Positions 4,354 to 28,746 of a stretch of DNA of 64,000 nucleotides are shown in pieces. This DNA comes from Mya arenaria (taxonomy: Eukaryota; Mollusca; Bivalvia; Myida; Myidae). Below the pieces are notes generated by a model, which saw nothing but the letters and a program-made list of their open reading frames with translations, did no database searches and was not told the origin of the DNA. The position numbers and the translations under genes are program-made. Position 1 is the stretch's first letter, and each line of letters opens with the position of its first letter. The stretch is from assembly GCF_026914265.1 (NCBI RefSeq), contig NC_069129.1, forward strand, positions 11,004,269-11,068,268, in the 5' to 3' direction.

Positions 4354-6503
4354 ATGGCCGCTGTTGAAGTCCACAACCCTGATGACATCTTAAAGAGATT
4401 TAGTAAACTTCTACAGACTGGGGAACTAAGCGATCTTACACTAAAGGTGGATGGGCAACGATTTCGATGTCATAGGCTACTGTTATGTGCAAGTAGCGAT
4501 GTTTTGAACACCATGCTGACAAGTCGCCTATGGCCAGAAGGTCGAAGCGATATTGTGGTTCTACGGGAAGACCCAGAATGTGCTGCGGTGTTTCAACACT
4601 TCCTGGAATATCTATATACAGGTTTGCAATCATCAAAATTAAGATTTTCTTGAACAAGCCTAAATGCTGTATGTTCATATAATAATAAGATTATTATCTC
4701 AAAAGCTCAACTATATAAACATTTATCAGAACCCAGATTTGCTTTTTTTCAAGCCCGGAATGGCTTTGAGCGTGCAGGCTTGTAATAATTTTGATCACTG
4801 GTTTGTCTCTTTACATTAATTGCTCTAGTAAAGTCAGTCACTATCTCATCTTATTATACTATAGCAAAACTAATGCTGCGATTCCAATTACCTGACGGAA
4901 CCTATATTTAAGTAACTGTCCTGATTATTGTTTTGAAGAATCGGTAAAATCTGTATGAAAATTGCTAGAACTTATACAAAATGTTAAACACAATCAAATA
5001 ATTTTCCAAAATAAGATGTTTTCCCTACCTACCTAGTCTGCTCTTTTTTGTCAGCATGTAACCAAACCATTTATATAACATTATTTTTGTTTGGGCTAAT
5101 TGAAAAGGGTTCTCTTTATTGTAAATGATTCATTAATTCTCATACAGCAATGGTTTGCCTGTACTGGGTCTTAAATGCATGCATACTTGCATTGTTATTT
5201 AGAGTAGAATTTATAAGTAAATAACTAGATTGGACTTGGTTATATACGTTTATGTATTATATAGATGTATGTATTGAAGATACATACATACAAGTTTCTA
5301 TGAATTAAAAGAGAAATTCTTTCTTATTAATTAAGCTCTCTGTCCATTTATTGAAGTGACATATTCTCTTCCCTGGAACGTTCTGCTTTTAATGTTTGCT
5401 TGTTTTCTGTTTAAGGGCAAGTAACTCTGGAGAAACACAATGTCCTACCTTTATTGACCCTTGCAGACAAATATAACGTTCCAAGTCTGTCCCGTTCGTG
5501 TCTCAATTACATGGTTGACGCATGTTGCCCAGCTACGCTGAAGTACATACTCCACTGGCTTCAATATGCTATCATATGCAGTTACAAAAACTTGGAAGAA
5601 AAATGTATGCAATTTATAACAGCTAATTTCGATGACGCTGTTTGTTTGGCGGATTTTCATCAAATAAGTAGAGATGTTCTGATTGCATTTCTCAGGCAGG
5701 ATGATTTGGTTGTCAGCAGTGAATTGCATCTGTATTCTGCTGTGAAAAGATGGTTTGAGGCTAACATTGATGAAAGCAGTGAAGAAAATGATGATTTGTT
5801 TTATATTGTAATGAAATATATAAAATTTCCCATGATTCCTCTCAAAGAATTGATTCGACTAGAAAATGATAGTATAGCTAGCCATAGCAAGTTTTTCCTT
5901 CAAAACATATTTTGTGCTTTGAAATATCACACTGGAACAAAAATGGATTTCTCTGAAGACTTGCTGAAACAGCTGAAGGAGAGAGAAAGGTTTCAGCCGA
6001 GAGTTTATGTGACGGAAACATGGAGTACAGAAATCATTGTTGAAAATGTTAGCCGATTGGCGGAAGGAGAGGTCCGAGGGGCATTTTTCAGTACACCTGG
6101 AAGTTACGCTGAAATTGATCAGTCATGTCACCATGACTGGCATGTAATGTTCTACCCACGAGGTGTCGTGTACTCCGACTGTCAGATGATTTCTTGGATG
6201 AACTGTCTGCAGAACCCGGGTGGAAAGTTTCAAACTGTTCGACTCGCACTGTCTACTCATTGTCAAAAGCGAAGGAAATTCAGAATCACTGTTCTAGTTA
6301 TGGGTCCTTGTGCGAATGGAGAAGAGTTTGTTTTCACTGCCAAAACAACTGATGCAATATTTGACAGTGATTGCACGCTGTTTAATTATGATAATATCAT
6401 CCCGTATGAAGAGGTATTGAAGAAAAAGTCACCATATAAGATAAATGACAGTATTAAACTTAAAATTGTGATAAGGCCCGAGTTTCAGCAAATGAAAGCT
6501 TGA
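4354..6503 (+). CDS. BTB-BACK protein, BTBD17-like (2 coding exons)
   Basis: Coding exons are 4354-4621 and 5416-6503. The junction ACAG/GTTTGC to TTTAAG/GGCAAG is phase 1 and restores ..EYLYTGQVTLEKHN.. across the BTB fold; total about 451 aa. The BTB/POZ domain is roughly residues 10-115 (SDLTLKVDGQRFRCHRLLL), BACK roughly 130-240, followed by a C-terminal beta-rich domain ending ..SIKLKIVIRP. The order BTB-BACK-unique C-terminus, including the PMIPLKEL segment and the late GEEFVF/NDSIKLKIVIRP part, resembles vertebrate BTBD17 (Drosophila TANGO10-type). It lacks the signal peptide of vertebrate BTBD17. BTB-BACK proteins commonly dimerise and act as cullin-3 adaptors; that role is inferred only. 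The start is the ATG in AAAAATGGCC. An acceptor-like TTTCAG six bases upstream of it suggests a 5' UTR exon further up. The gene converges on ITFG1. Confidence 0.85.
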
Positions 6504-8068: not shown

Positions 8069-11000
8069 CTACATGGCATCAAAGTGGAATTTTTGAGCTT
8101 CTTGGCGTTTCTCTTTCTTGTCCTCGACCTGAAAAAGGAACAATTATGGTCATTATTTTTAACTGAGTTTCCTTACTTTCATTTAATACTATTACAACAG
8201 CATTCATGGATTTCATTATAGTACACACAACTGGTACACATCCTGTGAATACTACAAAAATACTGTGTGAAAATTGACTGACGGTTTTGTTTTTAATGAT
8301 TTTGTTCTTAAATAACGTTGACAAACATTTGTGGTTTTTGTGTGACTCTAATCTATGATGCATTTTTTTTCCTATCGAGAAATGCATAAAGTAATATTAA
8401 AAAGTTTGCTTTAATTTTTAAAGTGCTCTCCGTAAAGATTTTCTTGGGGAGAAAATTATATTTTGCCACAGTACATGATGAAAGCAGAGCCCTATGGAGT
8501 ACTGTTGGTATCCAATGATGGGATTTCAACAAACTTTTATTTTTTTAAATGACATTATTTCTTAGGAAAGCAGTAGGTAACATGACTTTTATATGACTAT
8601 AAATTGATGCCTTGCTATTCTATCTGGAGTCAACATGTATATTGTAAATTTCAATGTGTAGGCAAAGTTAAGATATGTTATAACCGTCTGAAATGGACAC
8701 AGACCTTATCTCTCCAGTGTAAGACAGCAACAAGACCCGCAATGAAGCCACACGTCCCCAACAGTGCAGCTCCCGTGAGCAACATCAGACGACTCGGCAT
8801 CACAAACAACTTGCTTGTCCACCTAGGAAACATTTTAATGACGGTGTTTTAAAGATTTTACAAAATGGTTATTCAAACTGTACATGACTTGTACTTAAAT
8901 CAGAATTATTATGCCCCCTTTTGAAAAAAGTGGGGTATATTGTTTTGCACATGTCGGTCGGTCGGTCGGTCGGTCGGTCGGTCGGTCTGTCTGTCTGTCG
9001 GTCGGTCGGTCGGTCGGAATACCAAATGGTTTCCGATCAATAACTTGAGAACGCTTTGACCGAGGGACCTCATACTTGGTATGTGTATTGGTCATCACCA
9101 GCAGATGAACCCTATTGATTTTGAGGTCAGTGGGTCAAAGGTCAAGGTCAGTGTGACCTTTACATGAAAAACAGTTTCCGATCAATAACTTGAGAACGCT
9201 TTGACCCAGGAACCTCATACTTGGTAGGTGTATTGGTCATGACCAGCAGATGAACCCTATTGATTTTGAGGTCAGTGGGTCAAAGGTCAAGGTCAGTGTG
9301 ACCTTAACATGAAAAACGGTTTCCGATCAATAACTTGAGAACGCTTTGACCCAGGGACCTCATACTAGGTAGGCTTATTGGTCATGACCAGCAGATGAAC
9401 CCTATTGATTTTGAGGTCAGTGGGTCAAAGGTCAAGGTCAGTGTGACCTTTACATGAAAAACGGTTTCCGATCAATAACTTGAGAACGCTTTGACCCAGG
9501 AACCTCATACTTGGTAGGTGTATTGGTCATGACCAGCAGATGAACCCTATTGATTTTGAGGTCAAAGGTCAAGGTCAGTGTGACCTTAACATGAAAAACG
9601 GTTTCCGATCAATAACTTGAGAACGCTTTGACCCAGGGACCTCATACTAGGTAGGCTTATTGGTCATGACCAGCAGATGAACCCTATTGATTTTGAGGTC
9701 AGTGGGTCAAAGGTCAAGGTCAGTGTGACTGTAAGCTGAAAAAAGGTTTTCTGATTGTCCATATTTTATTTTCTTATATAGTAGACAGTAGAAATTTATA
9801 TGTCACTAAATGCATGAGTTGAAGTATCAGTTTTCAGTGAACATCTAGTTTAATTATGCCCCCCTTCGAAGCAGAGGGGTTATATAATTGCTTTGCACAT
9901 GTCGGTCGGTCTGTTGGAAGACCAAAGCTTGTCCGAGTGATAACTCAACAATTCCCGGACCTATGGTCATCAAACTTGACATGAAGATTAGGTATGACCA
10001 GTAGATGACCTGCCTCATATGCATCCAATGACAAATCAGCTGTCATTTCAGTCCATGCATATTTCATTCAATTGTCCAAATATTTCTGGCAACTTGGCGC
10101 TCAGGGGGCATAATGTTTGACAAACATCTCTTGTTTATTTTATAACTGGTACTTCTTTGTTAAATGAAACATTAAAAAAATATACTGATAACTGTCAAGT
10201 TTTAGTCAAGTACATCAATTTTGTTTGAAGTACTACATCAATAATGCCCTTATGAAAATTAGAAAAAGATGAAATCTAATAAACTTTGTCAAAAAATATC
10301 CATTTTGAAAATCGCAGTCAATTATAGCTGACTCAAAAGAAACAACAATGATAGATGAATGGCAATACATATTCCATCCACATCGTGTGAGTACTCTGTG
10401 TACAGCAATGTGAAGCATACCAGAGGGATCATATATAGGGTGGGGAATAATGAGTGTGAAACACACAACTTACCCGGAGGGATCATGTATAGGGTGGGGA
10501 ATAATGAGTGTGAAACACACAACTTACCCAGAGGGATCATGTATAGGGTGGGGAATAACGAGTGTGAAACACACAACTTACCCAGAGGGATCATGTATAG
10601 GGTGGGGAATAACGAGTGTGAAACACAACTTACCCAGAGGGATCATGTATAGGGTGGGGAATAACGAGTGTAAAACACATAACTTACCCAGAGGGATCAT
10701 GTATAGGGTGGGGAATAACGAGTGTGAAACACACAACTTACCCAGAGGGATCATGTATAGGGTGGGGAATAATGAGTAACTGTGAATTAGGGATCACCGA
10801 CTGCCATTCTCTGTTAAGGGCTGACTGAAAATAAAAAACAAGTTATTTATACATTGAACCAACCTATCTCATCAAGATCAGATTCTCAATAAGCTCTTAA
10901 TAACATTAGGCAGTGCATACCAGTAGCATACCATTAGGTAATGAGTTTCGCGCTCAGATTTTTATGATTTTAGCAACTAACTAACAATGTTTTTTCCTGC

Positions 11001-14000
11001 CAGCAGAATTTTGAGACTTATTGGAATGAATGAAAGAGAAAGCAAAATTCAAAAATTGAAATACATTTTATAATTAAGTAATACATAACACAGTTTGCAA
11101 ACATTAAAAGCATTAAATGACCTGTCAAAATCCGTCAAGTGATTTTCAAATCTACCATAGTTCAACATTTACTTCCTGTTGATTGACCCAATATAGTTGG
11201 CCAGGGTCTATGAAAGGAAGATAAGCCATAGGCCGAGAAAAACATGCTGGCCAAAATAAGCCATATATCACTACCCAACATGGAAATGTGTACCAAGTCT
11301 CAGAGTGATACCTCTTAAAATGAGGGAGAAGTTCACCCAACAAACTTCAATATAGCCAAAAGTTTAAAATTTATATTCAAGGGCACATACTGTAACTCTA
11401 AAATTAGATGGCTGTAGGTCACGAAAAATATGTCAGGCACTACACCATATCATGATGTTAACCATATTTCAAAATGATACCTCTTAAACAGTAGAAGTTT
11501 GCACTACAACTGCAATTATTAAAGCCATTTCCTCACATTTTCTGCAAAATTCATAATATTCTCTCTTATTTCTGCAGAACCCCGTCTTTCTTAAAATCTA
11601 GCTAAAACCCTAGAGCACTCTTAACAGTCTACTATTTTATATTCCAATTAATATATCTTACCGATGTATTAGTAGGTATGCCCACCCATAAACTGTCTAC
11701 AAAGTTCGGCGTTTGCCCAAGCCCAAACACAGTATAGGGCAGCTGCAGAGGGAGGTAGGCTGATTGAGACAGCTGGAACGCTGAAAATAAAGCATATACT
11801 TAGTAAACAAAAGGTGTCAGAACTTGCGTTTTCCAGAAAACTGATGATAAAATTTCCAGAAATGCTTCATTTCAAAATGGTTTTTAATATTATTGGTTAT
11901 TATTTATTTATTATTTATTTTTGTTCTTACTGTACAAAAACCTGTGAATATATCTTCACATTGTATGGAACTAAAATTTCTACAGTACAGGTCTATTTAT
12001 TGCCACTGTAGACATCTGAATTGATGAAAACCATATAACATTCACAACCATTAAATCATTGAATAAGCTGTACATGTATAAGCACTGGACTAACAAATGC
12101 ACATAACCTTAGGAACTAAAAGATTGTAACACTAAATAGTATGGCAAAACAAACTGGCTAACATGATCCAAATTTGCGTAATGTCCGTTACAAATCCACT
12201 TACCGGTAACATGTGCATATACACCCATTACTAATAAGCTTTTAATTGAGTGCCATTACTTTCCAACTTTTTGGGGAGTGCCTCCCATTTATTTTCATTT
12301 GGTTGTTGAGTGTCTCCCATTACTTTCCATTTACTTGTTGGGTGTCATTCGTTACTTACCAATTTTTTGTTGAGTATCATTCGTTACTTACCAATTTTTT
12401 GTTGAGTGTCATTCGTTACTTACCAATTTTTTGTTGAGTTCATTCGTTACTTACCAACTTTCTGTTGAGTGTCTCCCTTTACATCCAAGGTCTTGTACCG
12501 TATTGTTGGACCTGGCTGATTCACACCATACGGCTGCAATAACAGAAATGGTTATGGTGGGGTATTGAACAAGCATCATAAGGTAAACAGAGATTTATAT
12601 AATAAGAATTTCTTTTTACATGTACATCTCTGCCAGCATCACCCTGCAGATTTATGGTCTAAATGTCCACTCTACACCGAAGTGGTCCTGGGATCAATCA
12701 GCGGGCTTTTTTTCATAAAAAAATACTTAACCAGTAGTATCTTTTGCCTATGGTACAGACTTTACAAGAGCACCTTAATTCATTTCTTTTTATCAGACAA
12801 TCAAGGGGCACTACTCCACATTATTCTAGTTGCTACACTTATGTTTTATCAGCCATATGGCATAATTAACATTCATACAAAGTTTCATGAATATAATTCT
12901 TAAATGGTTTTCAATTTATTTCGTTTCAATGAGATATACCGGTACTTTTGAAACAAATATTTTATCTAGAGATGTAACTCAGCACCTCACTTAATATATA
13001 AAAAAAATCTTGACCTTACAATATTTTCCTATAAGCTCTTTAAAAAAAATTCAATATTAGCACATTTGTTCACTCTAACCTTTCTGTCACCTGGACAGTC
13101 GTAGTCACACCTTCCACTGACCACTGGAAAACAAAGGATAAACAAATAATCTATCTGTTTATGTATTTGTTTACCATATGATATCAAATGAATATCAGAA
13201 GTAAAAAAAATCAACAATGCGAACACCACTGAAATACAGAAAGATACCAGGCAGTGTTATTTGAGAGTATTTCACAAACTTTTGGTGTTGAGTAAGAGCT
13301 TTATGCATGTCTCGATTTGCATATGTGCATTCATAATCATTTTGTTCTTTCTTAATCAGAACTTACTGCTTGTATCACATGTCTGAATTATGTGTAGAAA
13401 TTTTTGTACAAAATAATGAGGAGTGATGTCAATAACATTTTACTCCTATTTTCAATGTACTGGGATTTCCAATTCAAACAACCCCAATATCTATGCAAAT
13501 TTTCAGCCCAAAATGTAACTTAACCATTTGAGTGATTTTCAATACAACTGCATGTGTACAACTCATCCAAATATATATGAACATCTAACACCCATTATGT
13601 AAACCATTTTCAATATCTATCCTACCCCAAAGTCTGTGAAACTTTTACACACAGTACAAGACCATTTCCAATACAAGCTAACTCTGTCACAAAAGTGAAT
13701 AGCAATGAACTAACCTGTGACCTTTACAAAGCAGGCGTCATCCACAAAATCCTGCTTCCTGATTTGTATAACTGGGGAGTCCTTACTGTCAAGGGCTGTA
13801 ACAATAATGTCAAGTATACCCTGAAAGAAAGAAAAACGTATAGTACCATGACGATATTGTCATTTTTATACTTAAGGCAATCATGTAAAATATGAACCTG
13901 GATCACCATACCAGATCCTTAAAGGTACAAGTGATTTGTTAAGATATAACTTTTTTGCTTGAATACAGTGAAAAACATACTTAGTTTTTAGGAATGTAAA

Positions 14001-20000: not shown

Positions 20001-23000
20001 ACCTCAATATCATTTTTTTGTTTTTAATGTTAAATTCATTATCTTTGTTAACAAAAAATCCACCTGCATTTCAAATTAACCTTATTTATCCAGTATTCCA
20101 ATTGGGGTATTCCACCAGCCTGCGAGACAACCATCATATCTGGAATAAAACAAAATAGAATCCTACAATGCATGTTTATTTTATTTGCAAAGTTTCAGGA
20201 GTCAAAAAACTAAATTTGCCAAGGTTGAAATACTGAACATTCAAATGTGGTAATGCCATCATGTATTGATCTTTCAAATGCGGTAATGCTATCATGTATT
20301 GACCTTTCAAATGCAGTAATGCCATCATGTATTGACCTTTCAAATGCAGTAATGCCATCATGTATTGACCTTTCAAATGCAGTAATGCCATCATGTATTG
20401 ACCTCAAATGCGGTAATGCCATCATGTATTGACCTTTCAAATGCAGTAATGCCATCATGTATTGACCTTTCAAATGCGGTAATGCCATCATGTATTGACC
20501 TTTCAAATGCGGTAATGCCATCATGTATTGACCTTTCAAATGCGGTAATGCCATCATGTATTGACCTTTCAAATGCGGTAATGCCATCATGTATTGACCT
20601 TTCGAATGCAGTAATGCCATCATGTATTGACCTTTCGAATGCAGTAATGCCATCATGTATTGACCTTTCGAATGCAGTAATGCCATCATGTATTGACCTT
20701 TCGAATGCAGTAATGCCATCATGTATTGACCTTTCAAATGCGGTAATGCCATCATGTATTGACCTTTCGAATGCGGTAATGCCATCATGTATTGACCTTT
20801 CGAATGCGGTAATGCCATCATGTATTGACCTTTCGAATGCAGTAATGCCATCATGTATTGACATTTCAAATGCCATCATGTATTGACCTTTCAAATGCGG
20901 TAATGCCATAAATGCGGTAATGCCATCATGTATTGACCTTTCAAATGCAGTAATGCCATCATGTATTGACCTTTCAAATGCGGTAATGCCATCATGTATT
21001 GACCTTTCAAATGCAGTAATGCCATCATGTATTGACCTTTCAAATGCGGTAATGCCATCATGTATTGACCTTTCAAATGCGGTAATGCCATCATGTATTG
21101 ACCTTTCAAATGCAGTAATGCCATCATGTATTGACCTTTCAAATGCAGTAATGCCATCATGTATTGACCTTTCAAATGCGGTAATGCCATCATGTATTGA
21201 CCTTTCAAATGCGGTAATGCCATCATGTATTGACCTTTCAAATGCAGTAATGCCATCATGTATTGACCTTTCAAATGCGGTAATGCCATCATGTATTGAC
21301 CTTTCAAATGCGGTAATGCCATCATGTATTGACCTTTCAAATGCAGTAATGCCATCATGTATTGACCTTTCAAATGCAGTAATGCCATCATGTATTGACC
21401 TTTCAAATGCGGTAATGCCATCATGTATTGACCTTTCAAATGCGGTAATGCCATCATGTATTGACCTTTCAAATGCGGTAATGCCATCATGTATTGACCT
21501 TTCAAATGCAGTAATGCCATCATGTATTGACCTTTCAAATGCAGTAATGCCATCATGTATTGACCTTTCAAATGCGGTAATGCCATCATGTATTGACCTT
21601 TCAAAAGCGGTAATGCCATCATGTATTGACCTTTCAAATGCGGTAATGCCATCATGTATTGACCTTTCGAATGCAGTAATGCCATCATGTATTGACCTTT
21701 CGAATGCAGTAATGCCATCATGTATTGACCTTTCAAATGCAGTAATGCCATCATGTATTGACCTTTCAAATGCGGTAATGCCATCATGTATTAACCTTTC
21801 GAATGCGGTAATGCCATCATGTATTGACCTTTCGAATGCAGTAATGCTATAATGTATTGACCTTTCAAATGCAGTTATGCCATCATGTATTGACCTTTCG
21901 AATGCGGTAATGCCATCATGTATTGACCTTTCGAATGCGGTAATGCCATCATGTATTGACCTTTCGAATGCGGTAATGCCATCATGTATTGACCTTTCAA
22001 ATGCGGTAATGCCATCATGTATTGACCTTTCGAATGCAGTAATGCTATAATGTATTGACCATTCAAATGCAGTTATGCCATCATGTATTGACCTTTCGAA
22101 TGCAGTAATGCCATCATGTATTGACCTTTCGAATGCACTTGTGCCAATATGAATGGACCATTCAAATGCAGTTACCCCAACATGAATGGACCATTCAAAT
22201 GCAGTTACCCCTACGTGAATTGATCATTCAAATGCAGTTACCCCTACGTGAATTGATCATTCAAATGCAGTTACCCCTACGTGAATTGATCATTCAAATG
22301 CAGTTACCCCTACGTGAATTGATCATTCAAATGCAGTTACCCCTACGTGAATTGATCATTCAAATGCAGTAACCCCTACGTGAATTGATCATTCAAATGC
22401 AGTTACCCCAACATGAATTGATCATTCAAATGCAGTTACCCCAACGTGAATTGATCATTCAAATGCAGTTACCCCTACATGAATTGATCATTCAAATGCA
22501 GTTACCCCTACATGAATTGATCATTCAAATGCATTTACCCCTACGTGAATTGACCATTCAAATGCAGTTACCCCAACGTGAATTGATCATTCAAATGCAG
22601 TTACCCCTACATAAATTGATCATTCAAATGCAGTTACCCCAACATGTATTAACAACCCAAAGACTATGCCCCCAACATTTTTTGACCATCCAAAGGCAGT
22701 ACGGTAACCCCAACATGTATTGACCATTCAAACACAGTACCCCATACATGTATGGAACATTTAAAAGCAGTTACCCCAACATGTATTGACCATTCAAATG
22801 CAGTAACCACAACATGTATTGACTATTCAAATACAGAAACCCCAACATGTATTGACTTTTCAGATGCTGTAACCCCAAAATTATTGACCATTCAAATCAG
22901 TAATCCAAAATGTATTGACTATTTAAATGCAGAAACCCTAACATGTATTGACCATTCAAATGCAGTTACCCCAACATGTATTGACAAAATTCTTACAGTT

Positions 23001-28712: not shown

Positions 28713-28746
<34 letters not shown>

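Follow-up and report, generated by a model that had tools for sequence, protein, structure and literature searches.

The gene ITFG1 of the bivalve Mya arenaria carries a tandem array across the end of its exon 15, in which the 5' splice site (donor) is present in six intact copies. We regard this array as most probably a minisatellite of the mirage type, i.e., one of the minisatellite-like repeats over exon-intron boundaries that are known from lancelets (PMC3087553, PMC3902484); splicing at the first donor would remove its extra copies along with the intron. The array is located in the window analysed here, a stretch of 64,000 nucleotides of contig NC_069129.1 (positions 11,004,269 to 11,068,268 of the forward strand), and the exon number 15 is taken over from a first-pass annotation of the same DNA.

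Both Tandem Repeats Finder and the positions of the donors (Table 1) bear out the 54-bp repeat with six intact donors on the minus strand, as described by that annotation. A full unit comprises the last 36 nt of ITFG1 exon 15, the motif GTAAGT and 12 nt of intron, an anatomy that supports the view that a coding segment and its 5' splice site were duplicated as one unit. Consecutive donors are spaced by 54, 54, 52, 54 and 54 bp, one unit being 52 bp long, and GTAAGT is kept in six of the seven copies. The units differ at few sites, but unit-specific variants exist. Two details of the first-pass annotation require correction. The number and spacing of its donors were right, but every position was one too high, naming the last base of the exon instead of the first G of the donor (the higher coordinate of each donor in Table 1). 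Its span 10420..10824 holds at the left end but not at the right, where the units start at 10777, while the exon itself begins at 10824. Chance is no serious option for a 358-bp array with a 95% match that starts within a conserved coding exon. A search of the whole genome (1,216,080,610 bases in 18 contigs, one of them, with 17,947 bp, of mitochondrial size) with the exon 15 array returned no match except the array itself.

The identity of the gene as ITFG1, likewise proposed earlier, is borne out by the translation of exons 13 to 16 joined at their first donors, which matches the Pfam profile C2_ITFG1 over its full length (positions 1-100 of 100, 128.5 bits, E 1.2e-37). A tblastn search with human ITFG1 (11 rows, of which two redundant alignments were set aside) recovered nine coding stretches between 31265 and 8072, where the terminal exon is located. 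The stretches of exon 15 and exon 16 have one match each in the genome (all six candidates scored), and a single ITFG1 3' end was thus found.

The six donors differ strongly in their consequences. Donor 1 leaves the reading frame open through exon 16, while donors 2-6 lead to an in-frame TAA after the same glycine and to the common product end …HDPSG*, because translation runs directly into the TAA of GG+G TAA, one base past donor 1. The claim that only the first donor keeps the frame was therefore right in effect, although the cause is the in-frame TAA, as the lengths of the first two decoy extensions (+54 and +108) are both divisible by three. The stops of donors 2-6 precede the exon 16/17 junction by 171, 225, 277, 331 and 385 nt. 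Within the C-terminal 83 residues, hydrophobicity peaks in a stretch encoded by exon 16 (mean 1.98 over 19 residues), which decoy products would consequently lose. The claimed near-equality of the six donors is supported by their near-identical context from -36 to +18, which leaves donor 1 without an evident sequence advantage. Donors 1-5 have the same predicted pairing with the U1 5' end, and donor 6 a slightly stronger one (Table 1); the exon 13 donors (-10.7 kcal/mol) fall between them, and those of exon 14 (-8.2) and exon 16 (-7.3) are predicted to pair more weakly.

A second donor array, which the first-pass annotation did not mention here, follows exon 13 of the same gene, with four intact donors and degenerate copies that reach about 12253. 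Its three decoys share one product end, …QQKVGK*, and a whole-genome search with this array likewise returned no match except itself. Among the nine ITFG1 stretches from tblastn, only those of exons 13 and 15 are overlapped by tandem arrays.

Similar arrays are found after exons of other genes. Among about 100 matches listed per motif, we followed 7 arrays with GGTAAGT (of 5,863 matches) and 18 with CAGGTAAGT (of 211), in a survey of the donor side only. Five of these 25 directly follow a homology-supported exon, i.e., a WSC-domain exon (E 1.7e-7) and, by PDB sequence searches, exons resembling alpha-aspartyl-dipeptidase (E 6.7e-5), cathepsin L (E 1.3e-4) and, at two closely similar loci, MED17 (E 2.1e-7; one search, as both loci share the exon translation). 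L039 is one further possible case, and in at least nine of the remaining arrays (L031, L034, L036, L038, L040, L048, L049, L050, L054) the up to 210 upstream bases inspected still consist of repeat. The dipeptidase-like, cathepsin-L-like, MED17-like, L039 and L037 queries had no Pfam match. The WSC array is diverged, with 16 matches at 16-23 of 23, exon included, whereas 200 base shuffles gave 0.02 on average. In all seven homology-supported arrays, the two of ITFG1 included, the reading frame meets a stop before the second GTAAGT. The donor array is thus neither unique to exon 15 nor to ITFG1. The donor-motif array L031 lies directly upstream of the dipeptidase-like array.

Table 1. Donor arrays, donors and exons of ITFG1 (window positions) and donor arrays after exons of other genes (genome positions in Mb).
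Feature	Position	Strand	Remarks
ITFG1 exon 13, 79 nt	12455..12533	-	ends DTQQKV + G
Second donor array, 31-32 bp units	12253..12482	-	GTAAGT at 12454, 12423, 12391, 12359; then degenerate copies GGAAAGTAATG
ITFG1 exon 15, 83 nt, phase 2 end	10742..10824	-	SALNREWQSVIPNSQLLIIPHPIHDPS + GG
54-bp tandem array	10420..10777	-	Tandem Repeats Finder: period 54, 6.7 copies, 95% matches
Exon 15 donor 1	10736..10741	-	sole donor among six giving conserved protein
Decoy donor 2	10682..10687	-	
Decoy donor 3	10628..10633	-	
Decoy donor 4	10576..10581	-	
Decoy donor 5	10522..10527	-	
Decoy donor 6, intron-proximal	10468..10473	-	predicted U1 pairing slightly stronger, -11.4 vs -10.3 kcal/mol (donors 1-5)
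Seventh, degenerate copy without GTAAGT	10420..10455	-	TCTGGTATGC; GTATGC from 10420, predicted U1 pairing -4.2 kcal/mol
ITFG1 exon 16, 118 nt	8705..8822	-	acceptor at 8822
Dipeptidase-like and WSC-domain exon arrays (L032, L033)	C1 0.955 and 6.273 Mb		
Two MED17-like loci (L051, L052)	C11 19.105 and 19.247 Mb		47-bp donor array after same exon
Cathepsin-L-like array (L046, L056, L059)	C8 32.097-32.100 Mb	-	41 GTAAGT in one intron, between exon …VTEVGNQ and exon starting GQCGSCW

The abundance of tandem repeats in this genome may provide a background for the origin of such arrays. Arrays with a period of at least 8, 20 after merging, make up 14.3% of the window, and such arrays account for 20.0% of a further 189,964 bases. 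The latter come from 19 stretches, of which two are adjacent to the window and the others were placed at round coordinates, not randomly drawn. Genome-wide and on both strands, triplets of GGTAAGT with 44-74 bp spacing number 5,863, compared to 6,464 for the reversed motif, which corresponds to 5.0% and 3.3% of the 117,532 and 197,664 single motifs. For CAGGTAAGT with 24-54 bp spacing the triplets number 211 vs 377 (2.6% vs 3.6% of 8,209 and 10,355 singles), per single motif about 0.7 times the reversed control. These counts include overlapping matches and are dominated by a few long arrays, which makes them a coarse test. Preferential seeding of donor arrays at splice sites is unsupported, as the two motif comparisons point in opposite ways, and with no consistent excess of donor-motif arrays over the reversed control, seeding by chance may be sufficient in a genome this rich in arrays. 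Extrapolation from two of seven arrays in about 22 Mb, which are very few cases, roughly suggests that the genome has donor mirages with 44-74 bp spacing in numbers of around a hundred.

Slippage or unequal exchange would have duplicated the 54-bp segment that spans the end of exon 15 and its donor. All extra copies are located 3' of donor 1 and would hence be intronic, so that splicing of donor 1 to the acceptor at 8822 would remove them and the protein would be unchanged so long as donor 1 wins. Use of donor 1 is suggested by the conserved protein, by the single ITFG1 3' end and by analogy to lancelet mirages, which are reported to splice normally. Transcripts from donors 2-6 would probably be targets of nonsense-mediated decay, given the distance of their stops to the exon 16/17 junction. 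We infer neutrality of the copies, whose donors would be intact since the copies are young or homogenised. However, we also have to consider observations that weigh against this interpretation. Mammals favour the intron-proximal site between two comparable donors (PMC6002489), and for the most intron-proximal donor, at 10473, a slightly better pairing with U1 is predicted as well; both would be in favour of a decoy. Furthermore, GGTAAGT triplets are, per single motif, about 1.5 times commoner than those of the reversed control, so that some donor preference is possible.

Among the alternatives, regulated use of the decoys would assign a function to donors 2-6, in which the stop before the transmembrane-like exon leads either to an ITFG1 dose controlled by decay or to a soluble ITFG1 ectodomain. 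The single end shared by the five exon 15 decoys, right ahead of exon 16 and the hydrophobic stretch it encodes, and the single end of the three exon 13 decoys can be interpreted in this sense. However, the stop follows from the exon phase and GTAAGT, and retention of the intron start would yield the same stop. The same anatomy is present in the unrelated MED17-like and cathepsin-L-like genes, which leaves nothing specific to ITFG1, and the decoy transcripts are likely to decay with stops 171-385 nt ahead of the junction. We consider such a regulation improbable.

Slightly less credible still is selection that keeps the extra donors, e.g., as U1 recruiters or as backups that speed intron removal. 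The donors are intact in all six complete exon 15 units, and in the cathepsin-L-like array, in which 41 GTAAGT persist, the donor hexamer ranks first of 44 windows in conservation (mean non-majority 0.012 vs 0.086 elsewhere in the unit). However, the donor hexamer is tied to three decimals with four further six-base windows of this unit, which leaves no clear sign of selection on the donors. In addition, the exon 15 units barely vary, so that intact donors are unsurprising, and donors are lost in some exon 13 and WSC copies. The first-pass annotation had left the choice between recent expansion and selection; expansion or homogenisation suffices, and a need for selection is not evident with the donor window tied with four others in the 41-copy array. 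Hairpins that hide the decoy donors were considered and rejected as a further candidate; an inverted repeat GTGTG-TTT-CACAC, recognised by eye, sits 3' of the donor and is disturbed in copies 2 and 3.

It is very improbable that the array is a burden, in which proximal donors win and ITFG1 is partly silenced in the sequenced individual. Such an outcome would agree with the mammalian intron-proximal preference (PMC6002489) and the predicted U1 pairing of donor 6. Against it stand the conservation of the ITFG1 protein, its single 3' end, and the recurrence of such arrays behind exons in conserved genes. Tandem repeats are prone to assembly errors, but an assembly artefact is scarcely credible for an array this short that has unit-specific variants and counterparts of the same type in other genes. 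In addition, the Mya arenaria assembly (1.22 Gb, 17 scaffolds), the likely source of this sequence, was built with PacBio long reads (PMC10663159).

The mirage-type arrays of the clam are natural substrates for the study of donor choice, with 4, 6 or 41 donors of nearly the same local sequence, and the choice must therefore depend largely on position. We tentatively suggest, as a possibility rather than an expectation, that the clam spliceosome selects the donor next to the exon from as many as 41 near-equals by position alone, unlike the mammalian preference, and that owing to this tolerance conserved genes (ITFG1 twice, MED17-like, cathepsin-L-like and others) could accumulate donor minisatellites as these spread. 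The two ITFG1 arrays bracket the U1 footprint of 35 nt (23 + 12; PMC6002489), with a wider spacing of 54 nt at exon 15 and a narrower one of 31-32 nt at exon 13, and simultaneous binding of U1 may differ between them. The cathepsin-L-like gene and its paralogue (L060, C8 27.037 Mb) offer a ready comparison of 41 GTAAGT with one, as the paralogue is without a comparable array while 143 of 147 exon nucleotides are identical and encode the same protein. RNA evidence is worthwhile, since use of donor 1 would contradict the intron-proximal preference of mammals, and existing data may provide the answer, as RNA from several tissues of Mya arenaria has been sequenced (PMC10663159).

Other features of the window include a 33-bp array of about 84 copies at 20240-22985, which creates long reading frames of up to 610 aa in both directions, a possible source of gene mis-annotation. 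An open frame of 362 aa at 5415-6503 on the plus strand, outside ITFG1, has a BTB/BACK-type resemblance by eye, and a run of 32 G is located at 28713-28744.

Duplicated boundary segments and competing donors are known from several other systems. Intron gain by tandem genomic duplication of the AG/GT (Rogers) type likewise involves a duplicated intragenic segment with a splice signal. In ITFG1, however, no new intron is needed and the existing one lengthens, and we rejected this type of gain for the ITFG1 unit (GG|GTAAGT), which, judged by eye, lacks an AG acceptor with a pyrimidine tract. Human genes in segmental duplications possess internal tandem repeats at exon boundaries, of which the expansion may change splicing (PMC2812944); those repeats are described as variable and from recent primate paralogues, whereas one ITFG1 3' end was found in the clam. 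Pairs of 5' splice sites of the ER-alpha exon 1 type likewise present comparable donors to one acceptor (PMC6002489), but with two sites as opposed to six in near-identical context, and the mechanism that favours the intron-proximal of two comparable donors is stated there as not known.

The closest parallel is provided by the lancelet mirages in the globin genes BflGb6 and BflGb9, in Adh3 and in troponin C, with similar imperfect duplications in PGBD5 (PMC3087553, PMC3902484), which contradicts the earlier assertion that no element of this type had been described. The lancelet arrays are likewise minisatellites across an exon-intron boundary and are reported without disturbance of splicing; two haplotypes of BflGb6 carry 6 and 3 units, respectively, and the Adh3 units measure 10-72 bp (PMC3087553, PMC3902484). 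In ITFG1 the unit also spans the boundary, the exon is real and conserved, and the copies carry splice signals. Judged by titles and the openings of abstracts, the open-access literature retrieved with bivalve/mollusc and mirage terms contained no case from a bivalve, though one elsewhere is possible. In contrast to the lancelet mirages, which are backed by RT-PCR and a reported length instability, the clam arrays are known from the sequence of a single assembly; they differ further in their bivalve host, in the number of GTAAGT per intron (up to 41) and in the presence of two arrays in one gene. The mirage as a type of element is thus already known from lancelets, and new are the donor arrays in the clam, two in ITFG1 and those at five other loci.
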